7,891 nucleotides of DNA from an uncultured Clostridia bacterium (GTDB taxonomy: Bacteria > Bacillota_A > Clostridia > Christensenellales > Aristaeellaceae), in NCBI GenBank assembly GCA_947165745.1, contig CAMVBO010000066.1, positions 1-7,891 of the forward strand, in the 5' to 3' direction. Shown here piece after piece: positions 2,108-7,561 of the stretch (positions are counted from its first letter, which is position 1; every line of letters starts with the position of its first letter). The position numbers and the translations under genes are program-made. The notes beneath the pieces were generated by a model. It made no database searches. It saw only the letters and a program-made list of their open reading frames with translations, and was not told the DNA's origin.

Positions 2108-2288
2108 ATACGACATCACCAATCTGTTCGCCGCGTCATTTTACCAGAAGAAGGTCGCGGAGGTTTGCCTGAACTGCGAACCCCCCAGATGCATGTACCC
2201 GGCAGGGTGTGAAAAGTATCGGGAAGCCTGCAGGGCTGAAGCCGCCAAGACCAATTTCAGCAGGAAAAGGCAAAAGGAGGATGCGTGA
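2100..2288 (+). CDS. Cys4 miniprotein, probably zinc-binding
   Basis: This 62-residue protein has cysteines at 23, 26, 31 and 37 (CLNCEPPRCMYPAGC), a C-x2-C-x4-C-x5-C pattern suited to one zinc ion, then a basic C-terminal helix ending FSRKRQKEDA. No family name is recognised. The gene overlaps the regulator upstream by eight bases and shares one base with the methylase-like gene downstream (TGATG), so translation of all three is probably coupled. Its ribosome site (GGAGGAGAAGG) lies within the end of the regulator gene. Nucleic-acid or protein binding is possible, but nothing beyond the metal-site pattern supports it. Confidence 0.75.
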   Translation: MREYDITNLFAASFYQKKVAEVCLNCEPPRCMYPAGCEKYREACRAEAAKTNFSRKRQKEDA

Positions 2289-3205
2289 TGGCCTACGTGG
2301 GACACACCGCTCGTCAGCGGGAGTTGGAGAAGCTGTACAACAAACTGTGTGGACGGTACTCCCGCTACGAGGTCTGGCAGGACATGGTCGTCATGATCGC
2401 GTGCGCCATCGCCAACGCCGTGGACAATCGCCACTTCGACGAGCGCGAGGCCATGTACATGCGCGTCGTGTCGAAGTATTCCAAGGAGGAGCTGAGCGTC
2501 TTCCCGGAATTCTTCACCCACATCGTGCTGGGCATGGAGGAAAGCCCTGACTGTGATTTCCTCGGAGAGCTGTACATGGACCTGGAATTGGGCAACAAGT
2601 ACGCCGGCCAGTTTTTTACACCATACGACGTATGCAGAATGATGGCACAGGTGACCATCAACGACGATCATCTCAAGGGCGAGATCGAAAGGCACGGCTG
2701 GATTTCTGTGAACGACTGCGCATGCGGCGCCGGAGCCACGCTGGTCGCCACTGCCAATCACATGCGGGCCATCGGTATCAATTATCAGACGCAGGCGCTG
2801 TTCGTCGCCCAGGACGTGGACATGACGGTGGGCCTGATGTGCTACATACAGCTTTCACTGCTGGGCTGCGCCGGATATGTCGTAATTGGTAATACACTGA
2901 CAGAGCCGCAGGTCGGGCCGGTACTCTTCGGCGAGGATTCGTCGCGCTGCTGGTTCACGCCCATGTACTTCAGCGCGGTCTGGTGTACCCGCAGGGCCAT
3001 CGAGCAGGCCAGGCGGATGTTTGGAGCAGTTGCAACAGGGCGTCCGAAGGCGGCAGAGGAAAAGCCTATGGCCAATATAGGCAGTGAGGAAGCCGCCGAG
3101 AGCGCCCCTCCGGAGCCTGAGAGCGAAGCACCGGCGCAGGAGGCCACGTTCACGGTGAGCACCAGGAAGAAGAACGCAGGCCAGTTGATGTTTGACTTTG
3201 GATAA
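2288..3205 (+). CDS. HsdM/N6-adenine-methylase-like protein without a visible catalytic motif IV
   Basis: The 305-residue product resembles the AdoMet-binding part of type I/N6-adenine DNA methylases. GQFFTPYDV (107-115) corresponds to motif X, and NDCACGAGAT (142-151) to motif I, with Cys where many members have Pro. FVAQDVD (172-178) fits the following acidic loop. The family's [DNS]PP[YFW] catalytic motif does not appear anywhere; GYVVIGNTLTEP stands where it would be expected. The N-terminal helical region (1-100) has no named domain seen. After about residue 250 the chain is rich in Ala, Glu and Pro, probably disordered, and ends in GQLMFDFG, which resembles a sliding-clamp-binding peptide. 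The ATG at 2288 is preferred to GTG at 2285 because AAGGAGG ends seven bases before it. No restriction or specificity subunit lies nearby, so a lone methylase, decoy or DNA-binding role is more likely than a full restriction system. Confidence 0.8.
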   Translation: MAYVGHTARQRELEKLYNKLCGRYSRYEVWQDMVVMIACAIANAVDNRHFDEREAMYMRVVSKYSKEELSVFPEFFTHIVLGMEESPDCDFLGELYMDLELGNKYAGQFFTPYDVCRMMAQVTINDDHLKGEIERHGWISVNDCACGAGATLVATANHMRAIGINYQTQALFVAQDVDMTVGLMCYIQLSLLGCAGYVVIGNTLTEPQVGPVLFGEDSSRCWFTPMYFSAVWCTRRAIEQARRMFGAVATGRPKAAEEKPMANIGSEEAAESAPPEPESEAPAQEATFTVSTRKKNAGQLMFDFG

Positions 3206-3480: not shown

Positions 3481-3861
3481 ATGACACTTGAGGATTTCAA
3501 GGATGTCTACAAGGACAAAACGCCGGTGGAGAAGTTGAAGCTGATGCAGGTTCAGCACAACTACTGGCGAAACGACATGAAGGATCGTGTCGATGCAAAC
3601 TGGCGCGGGAATTTTGAGGAAGCCCAGTATTATGCCAGAGAGTGCGACGCCATGCGCGACCGGATCATTTGGCTACACGAAGAGATCAGCAAGGCGCTGG
3701 GCAGGCTGGAACCTATAGAGCCGATAGTCGATGTAGACGAGTGGAAATGCAGGAATTGCGGCCACTCGCTGGAGCATCAGCAGTTACTTGGTGACAATGT
3801 TCTGTTCCATGAGCAGTACAGATTTTGCCCGGAATGCGGACAGGCGGTGAAGTGGGAATGA
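3481..3861 (+). CDS. Helical protein with C-terminal zinc ribbon
   Basis: The first 80 or so residues of this 126-residue protein are predicted helical and highly charged (for example TPVEKLKLMQVQHNYW and AMRDRIIWLHEEISKALG), with coiled-coil character. The C-terminus carries two CxxC knuckles, CRNC (90-93) and CPEC (116-119), spaced as in a small zinc ribbon, ending QAVKWE. Zinc ribbons of this type often bind nucleic acid or mediate protein contacts; the target is unknown. A GGAAGGG ribosome site precedes ATG 3481. The stop overlaps the next start (ATGA at 3858), so translation of the two genes is likely coupled. Confidence 0.75.
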   Translation: MTLEDFKDVYKDKTPVEKLKLMQVQHNYWRNDMKDRVDANWRGNFEEAQYYARECDAMRDRIIWLHEEISKALGRLEPIEPIVDVDEWKCRNCGHSLEHQQLLGDNVLFHEQYRFCPECGQAVKWE

Positions 3862-4256
3862 CTGAACAGGGGAAGCGTGAGTGGGTTATCGAGGGGTTGG
3901 AATTTACGCTTGAAGAATCCGGCTGGGATGCAAATGCAGCCTATGACCAGGAACTGATGATACAAGTCGTGACGGAAGCCATTGCCCTGCTGAAAGCGCA
4001 GGAGCCTAGGATGATGACGCTGGAAGAAGTCAAGGCTCTGCAACCCGATACGGATATATGGATAGAGGCTAGATATTTGAACGCTCCGATCAGAATTAGG
4101 GCTTGTACGGTATCTGGTTTTTCTCCAGGTGGCACAAGACTTTTTATAATCGGCGGCGCGCATAATTACCCAATTGATATGTATAACAATTATTTTCGCT
4201 GCTGGACATCCCGACCGACAGACGAGCAGAGGGAGGCAACACCGTGGGAAAGCTGA
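3858..4256 (+). CDS. WRCW-tail family protein 1 with N-terminal helical module
   Basis: The 132-residue product has two parts. Residues 8-50 (WVIEGLEFTLEE ... EAIALLKAQEP) are helical and resemble modules that in other phage proteins carry a Cys cluster, which is absent here. Residues 53-132 begin MTLEEVKAL, pass through a strand DIWIEAR, and end in the tail YFRCWTSRP-TDEQREATPW shared with three other genes here. ATG 3858 is chosen because it overlaps the upstream stop (ATGA); an in-frame ATG at 3825 would lie inside the zinc-ribbon codons. Its last codons also form the ribosome site and GTG start of the following gene. Bases 4071-4200 are clearly more A+T-rich than the neighbours (about 40% G+C by hand count), a possible sign of recent exchange. 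Function is unknown. Confidence 0.75.
   Translation: MTEQGKREWVIEGLEFTLEESGWDANAAYDQELMIQVVTEAIALLKAQEPRMMTLEEVKALQPDTDIWIEARYLNAPIRIRACTVSGFSPGGTRLFIIGGAHNYPIDMYNNYFRCWTSRPTDEQREATPWES
4230..4246 (+). promoter_or_regulatory. Dual-coding ribosome site: AGGGAGG and GTG inside the QREATPW codons
   Basis: Codons for Arg-Glu in the tail of the preceding protein read AGGGAG, giving AGGGAGG at 4230-4236. The Pro-Trp codons ccg-tgg contain the GTG at 4244-4246, seven bases downstream. The same arrangement is found again at 4468-4485. An in-frame ATG at 4256, overlapping the stop as TGATG, is the competing start. Confidence 0.55.
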
Positions 4257-4495
4257 TGAACGCCAAAGAAGCCATGAATGCGATTCAGAGAAATCAGCCG
4301 ATTCTGATTGAATCGCGGAAGTATGGCATCGTCGCCGACTGGTATTCCGCACGGAATAAGAACGAGTTTTCGGAATGGCTGCGGAGACGGACGCTGGAAG
4401 GCGCTTATCCTGAAATCGAATATGGGCGGACGTGGCGTGCCTGGTACATCGAGCCGACTGCGAAGCAAAGGGAGAAAACGCCGTGGCAAGTGTAG
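4244..4495 (+). CDS. WRCW-tail family protein 2
   Basis: This 83-residue protein has a short helix (MNAKEAMNAI), a strand PILIESR (19-25) aligning with WIEAR of protein 1, a charged middle (NEFSEWLRRRTLEG), and the shared tail YGRTWRAWYIEPTAKQREKTPW (written here with its aligned residues: W64, R65, W67, P71, T72, Q75, R76, P80, W81). The GTG at 4244 is preferred because AGGGAGG lies seven bases upstream; ATG 4256 would shorten the protein by four residues. It overlaps the previous gene by 13 bases and the following gene by 13 bases. No catalytic motif is seen. It is a paralogue of its upstream neighbour, probably from duplication. Confidence 0.7.
   Translation: MGKLMNAKEAMNAIQRNQPILIESRKYGIVADWYSARNKNEFSEWLRRRTLEGAYPEIEYGRTWRAWYIEPTAKQREKTPWQV
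4468..4485 (+). promoter_or_regulatory. Second dual-coding ribosome site with GTG start
   Basis: AAGGGAG (4468-4474) falls in the Gln-Arg-Glu codons of the WRCW tail, and ccg-tgg for Pro-Trp supplies GTG at 4483-4485, eight bases away. Here no nearby in-frame ATG competes for the following gene, which makes this copy the stronger case for the tail acting as a translation start region. Confidence 0.6.
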
Positions 4496-4914
4496 ACTAC
4501 AACCGTCAGCGGTATCAGTGGCTCAAGGCGCACGGCATATGCGCCAGCTGCGGAAACGCCGATGCCGAGCCGGGGCGCGTGTATTGCCGCAAATGTCTGG
4601 ACGTACGAAATGAGCTGTCCAGACGTTGGAAACAGGAGCACGCTGAACGGGTAAAGGAATACCAGCGGACCTATCAGCCGATGTATCGGGAGAGAAATCC
4701 GTGTATTGGCGCGGGAAGACAGGTGGAGAAGAAGCCCAGAATCACCAAACCGAACGGCACATGCCGCCGAAAGGACTGCTGGGAAAGCGCCCTTCCGTTC
4801 AGCTGCTGGTGCGCGGTACACAGGAAGGAGATGAATGAGCGCCGATGTCTGAAAGCCTATCTAAGCGCGAACGAGTCCGCAAATACGGAGAAGTGTTCAC
4901 CCCTCCCGAAATAG
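4483..4914 (+). CDS. Two-cluster zinc-finger protein
   Basis: From GTG 4483 the product has 143 residues. An N-terminal Cys4 cluster, C20/C23 and C35/C38 (GICASCG ... VYCRKC), follows a YQWLKAHG helix; this pattern resembles zinc-binding phage proteins related to HNH-type fingers, but no HNH catalytic histidines are seen. A basic helix-rich linker (about 45-70) leads to a second Cys/His group, C94, C99, C108, C110 and H113. The last 25 residues (from MNERRC) have little recognisable character and overlap the start of the methylase-like gene by 70 bases. DNA or RNA binding is plausible from the two metal sites and the basic charge. The start rests on AAGGGAG eight bases upstream inside the previous gene. 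Confidence 0.7.
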   Translation: MASVDYNRQRYQWLKAHGICASCGNADAEPGRVYCRKCLDVRNELSRRWKQEHAERVKEYQRTYQPMYRERNPCIGAGRQVEKKPRITKPNGTCRRKDCWESALPFSCWCAVHRKEMNERRCLKAYLSANESANTEKCSPLPK

Positions 4915-5276
4915 TCTCCCACATGTGCGACCTGCTGGAAGCGGAAAGCCCTGGCGCGTTCGCCATTAAAAAGACCTTTCTGGAGCCCACCTGCGGCGAC
5001 GGCGTGTTCATTCTGGAGATACTGCGCCGGAAGTTCGCCGGGTGCCGGGCGCATGACGAGTATCGTGCGGCGCTGGAGAGCGTGTACGGCTTCGAGATTC
5101 AGGCCGATAACGTGGCTGCTTGCATCGAGAACGTCACGGCGCTATGCCGGGAATACTTCAAACCGACCAAGGATGATTTGCAGCTCATAAACGACCACAT
5201 CATCATGTGTGACAGCCTGAAGGTGATGAAGATGCTGAAGTGGATGAACGAAAGAGAGGCGAAATTATGCCCATGA
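4845..5276 (+). CDS. Short DNA-methylase-like protein lacking the catalytic half
   Basis: The 143-residue product has the AdoMet-binding half of an N6-adenine methylase: RKYGEVFTPP (12-21, motif X), FLEPTCGDGVF (45-55, motif I), YGFEIQADN (81-89, acidic motif II) and IIMCDSL (119-125, like the GD-x-L of motif III). It stops 18 residues later, before the place where NPP[YF] and the target-recognition region would lie, and the next genes do not continue the frame. Other phage proteins of this type are often longer. An upstream in-frame stop (4836) leaves ATG 4845 as the first start. The nearest good site, AAGGAG 4825-4830, is 14 bases away, which is long, so initiation may depend on coupling. 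It could be an AdoMet-binding decoy, a partner of another methylase, or a truncated remnant. Confidence 0.75.
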   Translation: MSESLSKRERVRKYGEVFTPPEIVSHMCDLLEAESPGAFAIKKTFLEPTCGDGVFILEILRRKFAGCRAHDEYRAALESVYGFEIQADNVAACIENVTALCREYFKPTKDDLQLINDHIIMCDSLKVMKMLKWMNEREAKLCP

Positions 5277-5485
5277 CCAAGGAAGACCGCATGAAGCTGC
5301 GGGAAATGCTGCTCTACATCGCCGATTGTATGGTTGCCGTGAACGACATGCAATCGATGCACAACTGCAATGATTGCGGTGTCCGAAACGAGTGCCCTTA
5401 TGTGCCGCGACCGGGTACGCCGGTGCGGTGGAATTGCCCGCTGTGGCAGGAGGACGAGCGATGCAAGAGCGGACGAAGCAAATGA
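5267..5485 (+). CDS. Cys4 small protein with NCPLW signature
   Basis: The 72-residue protein has an N-terminal helix (EDRMKLREMLLYIADC) and then cysteines 34, 37, 43 and 57 in the order NCNDCG, NECPYVPRPG, RWNCPLW. The C-x2-C-x5-C-Y-x-P...N-C-P-L-W arrangement recurs in small proteins of Firmicute prophages and probably binds one zinc. No enzymatic role is evident. ATG 5267 has GAGAGG about eight bases upstream; ATG 5273, in the same frame and overlapping the upstream stop as ATGA, would remove two residues and cannot be excluded. It overlaps the next gene by 25 bases. Confidence 0.72.
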   Translation: MPMTKEDRMKLREMLLYIADCMVAVNDMQSMHNCNDCGVRNECPYVPRPGTPVRWNCPLWQEDERCKSGRSK

Positions 5486-5811
5486 TCGAAGCCTACATCC
5501 CCCACCCCAGGGATCCTTCCCTGGAGGCGGGAGAGTATTACTACTGCCGGGAGACCATGGGCGGGCCGCGGATCATCCGCGTGTTCGCCCTGGACATCCT
5601 GCCGCACAGGGACGGCACGGAGTACGGCATTTATCAGGCCCGGGGCACGCGCATGGTGCGGGTGGACGCCAGAGGCGATGGCGATCTGAGCCGGGGCGTG
5701 CACATGTACGAGCTGTACGACAACAAGGAGGATTGCCGGGACAGGACGCACAACTGCTATGATAACTGGGAATGGCTGCGTGAAGAGCAGCAGAAGGAGG
5801 AAAAGACGTGA
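5461..5811 (+). CDS. Conserved-looking phage protein, 116 residues, unknown function
   Basis: The product opens with MIEAYIPHPRDPSLEAGEYY (8-27), continues through beta-rich segments (RIIRVFALDILPH, GIYQARG) and ends with ELYDNKEDCRDRTH then NWEWLREEQQKEEKT, an acidic helix. The PHPRDPSL opening and the YDNKEDCRD ending look like family signatures of Clostridia phage proteins, from memory rather than a search. ATG 5461 has AGGAGG (5448-5453) seven bases upstream inside the NCPLW gene. The stop overlaps the next start (GTGA at 5808). No catalytic motif or membrane segment is seen. Confidence 0.72.
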   Translation: MQERTKQMIEAYIPHPRDPSLEAGEYYYCRETMGGPRIIRVFALDILPHRDGTEYGIYQARGTRMVRVDARGDGDLSRGVHMYELYDNKEDCRDRTHNCYDNWEWLREEQQKEEKT

Positions 5812-6104
5812 TTTTTGGAGGGATAGACTCACTGGGCAGCTATATGCCTGGGATGAAGTTCAAAAAGGTCAAGCAGAAACACATCTGGTACTGCGATCTG
5901 AAGCCCGGCCTTACCGTCCTGATCGAGCGGAGGGATGGCACGATAGAGAAATGCCTGCTGATGGAAAAGCAAGATAATGGATTCGTCGCCCAAACCGCTT
6001 CTTTCATGTGCGAACCGCTGTTGCGTTCAAATTATGGGCACACCTGGCGCTGCTGGTGGCGACAGCCGTCCGATGAAGACAGAGCAGCAGCACAGTGGAG
6101 GTGA
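5808..6104 (+). CDS. WRCW-tail family protein 3
   Basis: From GTG 5808 the product has 98 residues. AAGGAGG (5794-5800), coded in the previous gene, ends seven bases before the GTG, which overlaps the previous stop. Its segments are a basic N-terminal region (GMKFKKVKQKHIWYC), a strand GLTVLIERRDG (34-44) that aligns with WIEAR/LIESR of proteins 1 and 2, and the tail YGHTWRCWWRQPSDEDRAAA then QW. The Pro-Trp of the other tails is Gln-Trp here, so no embedded GTG forms; instead TGGAGGTGA, which codes the last Trp-Arg-stop, is the ribosome site for the next gene. No function is recognised. Confidence 0.72.
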   Translation: MIFGGIDSLGSYMPGMKFKKVKQKHIWYCDLKPGLTVLIERRDGTIEKCLLMEKQDNGFVAQTASFMCEPLLRSNYGHTWRCWWRQPSDEDRAAAQWR

Positions 6105-6108
6105 TTGC

Positions 6109-6426
6109 ATGAACACGAGTACAAGAGGCCCGCTGCGTGGCAGGGATGTACCCTTCGTGATGCATTTGGAGAGGGTCTGCCGGTTGATCGAGATGGGGCA
6201 GCGGTTCACGGTGGAATTCAACCCGAGCAGCGACATCGAGATCGCCAGGGTGATCCGGGATCTGGAGCTGCACGTGCACGACGGCGGCGACATATCCATG
6301 CGGACGCTGAACGGAGCCACGCTGATGGCGTTTGACCTGTCGCTGGGCAATTACAAGAGGGTGTGGCGGTGCTGGCAGAACGGGACGCCCACCGAGGCGC
6401 AAAGACGGGCCGTGAAGTGGGGGTGA
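6109..6426 (+). CDS. WRCW-tail family protein 4
   Basis: This 105-residue protein has a helix (FVMHLERVCRLIEMG, 16-30), a strand QRFTVEF (31-37), a mixed middle with IARVIRDLELHVHDGGD, and the shared tail KRVWRCWQNGTPTEAQRRAV ending KWG. One residue is inserted between WRCW and P-T compared with the other copies. ATG 6109 follows GGAGGT (6097-6102) by six bases, and the upstream stop is four bases away. The first dozen residues differ from the paralogues and may be flexible. It is the most diverged of the four members, and its role is unknown. Confidence 0.74.
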   Translation: MNTSTRGPLRGRDVPFVMHLERVCRLIEMGQRFTVEFNPSSDIEIARVIRDLELHVHDGGDISMRTLNGATLMAFDLSLGNYKRVWRCWQNGTPTEAQRRAVKWG

Positions 6427-7175: not shown

Positions 7176-7401
7176 CAGCCTGGGCTGTTTCACGACCAAT
7201 CAGCATAAATGTCGTGATTGCCCTTTCAACCCACATCCCGGCATGATCTGGGTGTATGGCTGCATCAAGGGACAGGGCGACATCGTAGATGCGGCGCGGG
7301 AGGCGCTGCGGAAATACCAGGAGGTGACAGATCATGGAGAAGGAGCTGACAGCGGCCGAGATACGCGGGTTGCCGGAAGGCGCCAAGGTGACGGTGCATA
7401 A
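7150..7401 (+). CDS. Cys-cluster protein resembling the N-terminal module of 3858-4256
   Basis: The 83-residue product opens with a helix (VQQIIDSLG) and has cysteines at 13, 21, 24 and 38 (KCRDCPF, YGCIKG), then the helix DIVDAAREALRKYQEV. A 'C-x2-C-P-[FY]...C...D-A-x-x-A-L' module of this kind is known to me from Clostridia phage proteins, where it can be fused to an MTLEEV domain like that of the gene at 3858. ATG 7150 is preferred to GTG 7141 because GGAGG (7136-7140) abuts the GTG but lies nine bases from the ATG. After residue 60 the tail is Gly/Arg/Asp-rich and overlaps the next gene by 68 bases, which suggests a lost stop or an old frameshift. Confidence 0.7.
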   Translation: MPDVQQIIDSLGCFTTNQHKCRDCPFNPHPGMIWVYGCIKGQGDIVDAAREALRKYQEVTDHGEGADSGRDTRVAGRRQGDGA

Positions 7402-7561
7402 AACCGACCAGTATGGTTATCCCTGCAAGGGCACGTATTATGTGCATGAGTTGTCGACAGGCAAGAAGGTGCTGATGACACTCAGCCCGTTTCATAGGGG
7501 CTACATGGAGATCCGGAGCCGGAAGGGCCAGAGATACACGGTGGAGGTGGAGTATGACTGA
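7334..7561 (+). CDS. Tail-less relative of the MTLEEV/WRCW proteins
   Basis: The 75-residue product begins MEKELTAAEIRGLPEGAKVT, which lines up with MTLEEVKALQPDTDIWI of the 3858 gene: helix, L-P-x-G, then a strand. It continues with strands GYPCKGTYYVHE, KKVLMTLS and GQRYTVEVEYD, but has no WRCW tail. A near-perfect site, AGGAGGTGA (7319-7327), precedes the ATG, so this start is well supported even though it lies 68 bases inside the previous gene. It overlaps the following gene by eight bases. A beta-rich small domain is likely; the function is unknown. Confidence 0.72.
   Translation: MEKELTAAEIRGLPEGAKVTVHKTDQYGYPCKGTYYVHELSTGKKVLMTLSPFHRGYMEIRSRKGQRYTVEVEYD

Follow-up and report, generated by a model that had tools for sequence, protein, structure and literature searches.

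The window analysed here, a stretch of 7,891 nucleotides from an uncultured Clostridia bacterium (contig CAMVBO010000066.1), holds four small genes that end in a common tail, WRCW...P..QR....W. We name them by their first positions, genes 3858, 4244, 5808 and 6109 (Table 1). A preliminary description, made from the letters alone, had pointed out this tail, and its sequences are confirmed as quoted, together with the I-E-x-R strands WIEAR, LIESR and LIERR of genes 3858, 4244 and 5808. The six pairs among the four proteins gave Smith–Waterman scores of 50 to 78 (z 6.5 to 11), none of which was reached in 500 shuffles; of the remaining 165 pairs that the 19 compared proteins of the window form, one rose above z 3 (200 shuffles each). 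Beyond the tail the similarity of the four is weak, at 22–38% in multiple alignments, with genes 4244 and 3858 aligning in the core too. A DNA pattern written for the tail is matched by two of the four genes and had no matches in 200 shuffles; one of the two that miss it has F for W, the other an extra residue. The four proteins have no Pfam match at E ≤ 1, and scans against PHROGs and NCBIfam returned stray matches only, at E 0.088 or weaker, so the earlier remark that no function is assigned holds for the family libraries scanned.

Table 1. Positions in the window of the genes and gene parts discussed (N-module, amino-terminal module)
Feature	Positions	Strand	Remarks
Gene 3481	3481..3861	+	N-part (MTLEDFKDVYKD...) joined to a C-terminal zinc ribbon, ending QAVKWE; Pfam zinc-ribbon matches
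Gene 3858	3858..4256	+	N-module, linker, predicted SH3-like core, WRCW tail
Linker of gene 3858 (LLKAQEPRMMTLEEV)	3974..4037	+	Mosaic breaks fall here
Exchanged core cassette	4008..4247	+	DNA matches to L293 and L294
Tail of gene 3858	4197..4250	+	AGGGAGG 4230-4236 and GTG 4244 start gene 4244
Gene 4244	4244..4495	+	Core plus tail, without N-module
Cys-rich protein gene	4483..4914	+	Begins within the tail of gene 4244
Gene 5808	5808..6104	+	Predicted SH3-like core plus tail
Gene 6109	6109..6426	+	Separate subfamily, without visible shuffling

The tail family and its predicted fold

The tail family is a large set of small phage proteins, so far unnamed. A 19-member profile recovered 1298 proteins at E ≤ 1e-3 out of 1965 candidates, which makes the tail a real family signature, and no informative name is attached to any of the 120 homologues listed from these 1298. 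The DNA pattern matches 118 stretches of a viral-contig collection, 80 of which are listed, and 111 distinct open reading frames (ORFs) with the tail were obtained from 132 loci, the commonest tails being YGKTWRCWTSRPTDEQREATPWE or ...QRKAVKWD. Several copies per phage record, in line with the four of the preliminary description, are indeed seen: among 30 viral records selected for holding the tail, copy number runs from 1 to 8, and 12 records have at least two (E ≤ 0.01). The tail does not always mark the end of a protein, since in a 234-residue ORF on the minus strand of L019 it lies inside a longer product: another residue stands in place of the last Trp (ATPR), and the reading frame continues into other sequence.

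In sampled bacterial genomes the tail is rare, with one positive among 291 of one class and one among 200 of one order; both positives are the centre genome, itself picked for a match, and for many of these genomes the scoring covered just a share of the first-look candidates. Six of the 12 genomes behind the pattern matches hold the tail, one of them weakly. The five clearly positive ones are titled Clostridiales, Clostridia or Lachnospiraceae, one being a Sheep_Rumen assembly and two being RUG assemblies, a label that we take to mean rumen. The carrier phages are apparently those of gut and rumen bacteria. A scan of GTDB genomes with the DNA pattern was set aside, as its matches (at least 120 stretches) are mostly chance to judge by the organisms, many coming from one Bradyrhizobium genome; the profile searches of sampled genomes described above took its place. 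Against 50,697 phage records, tblastn of the homologue P0031, the one member tried there, found no match, and blastn of the window gave six short matches, in the methylase and ThyX genes only.

Gene 5808 recovers only itself in a single-sequence search, and none of the loci from a pattern-based search with it was confirmed. Gene 6109 belongs to a subfamily of 50 listed proteins, itself included, 46 of which satisfy a strict tail pattern, and it is 87% identical to P0123 of another phage; in 18 of the 50 that were aligned, gene 6109 among them, the Trp and Pro of the tail are invariant. One weak PHROGs match (E 0.0049) was obtained, for one of the 73 members of A3.

Gene 3858 is predicted to form a five-stranded SH3/Tudor-like barrel (pLDDT 84.8) and gene 5808 an SH3-like barrel with the same strand order (pLDDT 66.7), so that the two models, instead of having unrelated folds, agree with the common family proposed earlier. 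In both, the tail would make up the last strand and a C-terminal helix, and a short helical turn precedes the last of the five strands, as it does in the five-stranded SH3-like and Tudor-type barrels of bL19, the TDRD3 Tudor domain and Spindlin.

Modules, linkers and the positions of the breaks

Judged by their sequences, most genes of the family are mosaics, in which an N-module is joined in frame, via a conserved linker that reads LLKxQEPRVMTLEEV, to an exchangeable core; gene 6109, a more distant relative, has retained an N-part of its own. The preliminary description had missed this make-up. Gene 3858 (P0002) and P0031 share their first 51 residues almost exactly and have the same tail, with unrelated cores in between. 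Conversely, the core of gene 3858 recurs at 95–97% identity in P0108, P0035 and P0005, where the N-modules are 33–44% alike. A linker and a tail could be parsed in 193 of 231 sequences (38 lack one or the other in parsable form), giving 18528 pairs. In 47 of these the N-modules are at least 80% identical, and the accompanying cores are below 40% in 31, in between in 6 and at least 80% in 10. Cores are at least 80% identical in 243 pairs, with N-modules below 40% in 131, in between in 102 and at least 80% in 10. Among other proteins of 150–320 residues from the same contigs, taken as a control, three of the 78 half-comparisons at 80% or above have the other half below 40%.

The linker is not confined to proteins with the tail. 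A loose linker pattern finds 41 ORFs with it and 67 without; some of the 67 are chance matches, and in a few the tail is present but divergent. Many of the 67 end in zinc ribbons (..CP.CG.AVKWE) or in RCKDC..WFCADGER. A parsed set of 148 genes is made up of 76 with WRCW, 59 with a zinc ribbon, 11 with CADGER and two with DUF551; in four pairs of this set, N-modules 70–85% identical sit on WRCW in one gene and on a zinc ribbon in the other. The window offers a case of its own, as an N-part like that of gene 3481, which carries a zinc ribbon here, is found in L293 on the core of gene 3858 (ORF 3743-4372, by eye a 3481-like N-part, a further N-part and the gene 3858 core). The end of gene 3481 also matches L400 (window 3705-3862, 81.0% DNA identity), L384 (3725-3861, 80.3%) and L395 (3725-3865, 79.4%).

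The DNA, too, shows sharp breaks. Window positions 4008-4247 are 96.7% identical to L293, and 4001-4229 are 96.9% identical to L294, although in the remaining segments common to the window and L293 (E < 1e-12) the identity is 71.2, 74.3, 72.2 and 84.9%. In 21-base steps, the ungapped identity to L293 and L294 jumps from 0.14–0.57 to 0.81–1.0 at base 4005 and drops again at the steps from 4236 (L293) and 4215 (L294); the two breaks lie in the linker and in the tail. Each of these borders is also matched by itself, the linker at 86–91% in genes otherwise unmatched and the tail of gene 3858 at 84–94%. A second clear case is given by L051 and L076, which are 98.5% identical over 264 bases from linker to tail and unmatched on both sides, the N-module of L076 being 98.5% identical over 195 bases to a second gene on the record of L051, one gene further. 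The gene in L076 is thus composed of the N-module of L411 14230-14691 and the core of L411 13408-13833, at 98.5% each.

For a general map of the breaks, matches of at least 88% identity over at least 60 bases were used in those genes (85 of 149) whose linker could be recognised, which left 34 usable matches of 102 selected. Their 5′ ends fall in the tail (11), linker (10), N-module (7), upstream sequence (2) or sequence edge (4), and their 3′ ends in the tail (14), linker (5), N-module (1), downstream sequence (6) or edge (8). None lies in a core, and 40 of the 48 ends inside genes are in the linker or tail; the 34 include five tail-only, two linker-only and three edge-to-edge matches, the last being overlapping pieces, nor are the pairs independent of one another.

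These data bear on the origin of the four copies, which the preliminary description took for a module that duplicates and is kept. Local tandem duplication, with the copies retained for dosage or diversity, would fit the 12 records with 2–8 copies and the copies that are adjacent (genes 3858 and 4244, and in L411), and no close relative in another phage is shown for gene 5808 or for gene 4244, the latter not searched alone. On the other hand, the four proteins differ as widely as described above, yet the core of gene 3858 is 97% identical to L293 and L294 and gene 6109 is 87% identical to P0123, so that for both genes much closer relatives exist in other phages, and the two resemble each other far less. 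Of the earlier interpretation, the common family and the several copies are supported; local duplication, which we regard as very improbable, is not.

It is unlikely, too, that the tail is simply part of a structural domain, its residues being needed by the last strand and helix of the barrel, with the core a fast-diverging family that is inherited vertically. Both models place the tail where this explanation requires it, and the invariant Trp and Pro of the gene 6109 type, where shuffling is not visible, agree with it, as does the average codon identity discussed below. What it leaves unexplained are cores 95–98% identical on unrelated N-modules, the sharp DNA breaks at linker and tail, and similar N-modules on zinc ribbons. 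It is contradicted as a full account, and survives for the retention of the first half of the tail.

Start signals of the following gene

The genes of the family are packed end to end, and the last codons of the tail contain start signals of the next gene, a second feature that had escaped the preliminary description. The GTG at 4244 overlaps the last Trp codon of gene 3858 (4245-4247). In the tail of gene 4244, AAGGGAG (4468-4474) and GTG 4483, at position −1 of the Trp codon, start the following gene, this GTG again overlapping the last Trp codon. The last Trp codon of gene 5808 (6096-6098) opens the Shine–Dalgarno (SD) sequence TGGAGGTGA (6096-6104) for ATG 6109, and that of gene 6109 (6418-6420) opens TGGGGGTGAGGG, upstream of ATG 6431, without overlapping a start. 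Gene 3481 is arranged likewise, the ATG of gene 3858 being its next start, at +5 of the Trp codon.

Throughout the family, predicted pairing with the anti-SD at tail nucleotide 36 is −7.54 (n 144), and synonymous recoding weakens it to −4.05 (z −18). In the first codons of the tail, pairing of this type is avoided (z +10). In the linker the values are −5.45 and −3.48 (z −11, n 85), and control segments in the cores stay within |z| 3; all these z values are overstated, as the sequences are related. Of the 142 genes with enough sequence, 139 are followed by an ORF of 45 codons or more. When the next start is taken as an ATG within +9, or otherwise as the first start of the frame, it lies at −1, +4 or +5 of the Trp codon in 118 of the 139. 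The residue before the Trp varies with this position: of 50 tails with K there, 42 have the start at +4 or +5, four at −1 and four elsewhere, and of 50 with P, 35 have it at −1, seven at +4 or +5 and eight elsewhere (p 9e-12 for the 88 K- and P-type tails whose next start is at one of these three offsets). The linker of gene 3858 also holds an AGGAG (4000-4004) with an ATG six bases later (4011), a possible internal start. A start codon is present in 78 of 85 linkers against 68.8 expected, on account of which internal initiation at the linker is a suggestion only.

Could the tail then be mainly a translation-coupling element, its last residues kept because their codons supply the next gene with its ribosome site and start? 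The SD excess, the fixed offsets and the end residues that follow the start position speak for this. So does a set of 68 zinc-ribbon genes that were selected for their terminal Trp, 59 of which have the next start at the same offsets. Against it, WRCW and P sit upstream of the SD, in codons that avoid SD-like pairing; other genes embed an SD without such a motif, a Trp being found within the last three residues of 22 of 404 control gene pairs; and the Trp is retained in proteins of the gene 6109 type. We consider this explanation quite improbable.

We propose instead, and hold it to be probable, that the tail belongs to a combinatorial family of small accessory phage proteins, in which N-modules and C-modules are combined through the linker and swapped near linker and tail, the tail codons in addition carrying the start of the next gene. 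Each C-module, here a predicted Tudor/SH3-like barrel ending in the tail, could be joined in frame to many unrelated N-modules. New combinations would arise when phages recombine in or close to these two borders, linker and tail, and the cassette from linker to tail end would be swapped between paralogues and between phages; that the route is homologous recombination, we infer. RecT/ERF fails as a general agent of it, being present in only seven of the 30 records. As the genes leave hardly any space between them, the final codons of the tail also encode the SD of the following gene, in many cases together with a piece of its start codon. This embedded start would influence which codons are used and which residues stand at the variable end (..AVKWD/E or ..EATPW). 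It is probably not the only reason that the tail is retained.

Several observations weigh against the combinatorial reading or temper it. At identical residues, the mean codon identity is 0.452 for tails with unrelated cores and 0.601 for linkers; ordinary homologous genes at 30–70% amino-acid identity have 0.45–0.51. Since the average for the tail is that of ordinary homologues, the tail is not kept at the DNA level on average, and a DNA-level constraint across its whole length is rejected. Nor is the embedded SD special to the family. The 404 control pairs, which were selected because the next ATG is near, embed one too (z −14, of smaller size), as do the 68 terminal-Trp zinc-ribbon genes (z −10.5), and SD embedding is ordinary in these genomes. 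Finally, the last Trp likely has a role in the protein, because it is kept in 116 of the 117 listed homologues with the motif (three of the 120 are without it), is invariant in the gene 6109 type and, in gene 6109, has a codon that overlaps no start; that it is merely a by-product of the next start is untenable in view of the 18 aligned proteins. The DNA gene sets, those of the break map as well as those of the start signals, were chosen by a pattern that requires the Trp and cannot test its conservation, whereas the protein profile behind the 1298 homologues does not require it.

Setting, significance and comparison with known systems

The window also codes for a FAD-dependent thymidylate synthase, ThyX (91-1047, NCBIfam TIGR02170), and for two short N6-methylase-like proteins (2285-3205 and 4845-5276) with an S-adenosylmethionine-binding type motif, in which an NPPY-type motif was not seen by eye. 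The shorter of these genes is probably not broken, because a copy of similar length recurs in L411 (10657-11073). By eye, proteins resembling the Cys-rich one of the window are present in L411 at 9895-10509, 11054-11569, 16336-17130 and 19127-19489, and a small window protein (7334-7561) begins with MEKELTAAEIRGLPEGAKVTV, like the start of a family core, and is without the tail. In L343, L372, L385, L390 and L320, tails ending in PWN directly overlap genes that start with MELKPCP; those of L343 and L390 were scanned and both match Pfam Lar_restr_allev.

This setting fits an early region concerned with the host and with restriction. From the predicted fold together with the neighbourhood (ThyX, the N6-methylase-like proteins and the Lar-type restriction-alleviation genes after some tails), it is possible, as a tentative guess, that the barrels are binding modules for host or defence proteins early in infection. 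It is tempting to go further and to regard the units as start-to-start cassettes of a dedicated diversification system of gut phages, which seems doubtful to us. Each module would then have on either side a conserved sequence that is at once coding sequence, ribosome site with start codon and recombination joint; an incoming module would be translated immediately, either fused to a new N-module or alone from an internal start; and phages would draw on a stock of small binding domains, recombined to counter the defences of the host.

In most phage genomes, small genes without a name take up a large share of the sequence. A rule of construction such as the one proposed here would allow module borders to be predicted and orphan genes to be grouped by module, and would let one follow how phages build new proteins. 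Breaks within genes at conserved linkers are, moreover, a natural and countable case for the origin of the joints in phage mosaics. If the barrels do bind host or defence proteins, the modules would form a library for host-takeover or anti-defence factors.

Among the open-access papers that our searches returned, judged by titles and abstract openings, none describes the WRCW tail or its modules. A small phage domain that may resemble the family is DUF551 (PF04448), whose closing strand has a W-x3-P motif that is present in the tail family too. Weak Foldseek matches (E 0.013 and weaker) are to viral models named DUF551; the domain is present in ten of the 30 tail-holding records and is preceded by the same kinds of N-part in L412 and L415. 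Membership of the four window proteins was rejected, with no Pfam match to DUF551 at E ≤ 1. A profile-profile comparison by hhalign gave a probability of 0.03, where the maximum is 100, and E 0.93, and so no sequence-level homology; the opening WISVxDRLP motif of DUF551 is absent from the window proteins and from the family consensus. As a side observation, three neighbouring DUF551 matches are present in G017 (124683-126342) and again in G022 (90749-91640), each time with a WRCW gene at a distance of up to about 3 kb; two of the three in G022 are under the Pfam cut-off.

As to the start signals, the family resembles translationally coupled pairs in that the SD and the start of one gene are found within the preceding gene or at its very end, just as overlapping genes in ordinary compact operons carry them in the last upstream codons. 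The difference is that the putative coupling codons of the tail family sit in the motif that closes an exchangeable protein module. As to the swaps, phage mosaicism has been ascribed to recombination of diverged sequences by lambda Red (PMC2327257), and recombination of this type would allow modules to be swapped where the homology is short and imperfect.

The closest precedent for the mosaics appears to be Ea22 of the exo-xis region of lambda and Shiga-toxin phages, with its swapped C-terminal domains. Ea22 variants are reported to have a common N-terminal part and coiled coil with largely unrelated C-terminal sequences, one of which carries DUF551 (PMC10834534). The signature of that N-terminal part and coiled coil, Ead_Ea22, has no Pfam match in the window proteins at E ≤ 1; what the tail family has in common with Ea22 is the same N-terminal part on different C-terminal domains. 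It differs in that many N-modules are combined with many cores, in that the breaks lie in conserved linkers, and in that several copies per phage are possible. The tail-family mosaics are of the same kind as Ea22, and exceed it in scale, in linker-bounded exchange and in multiplicity.

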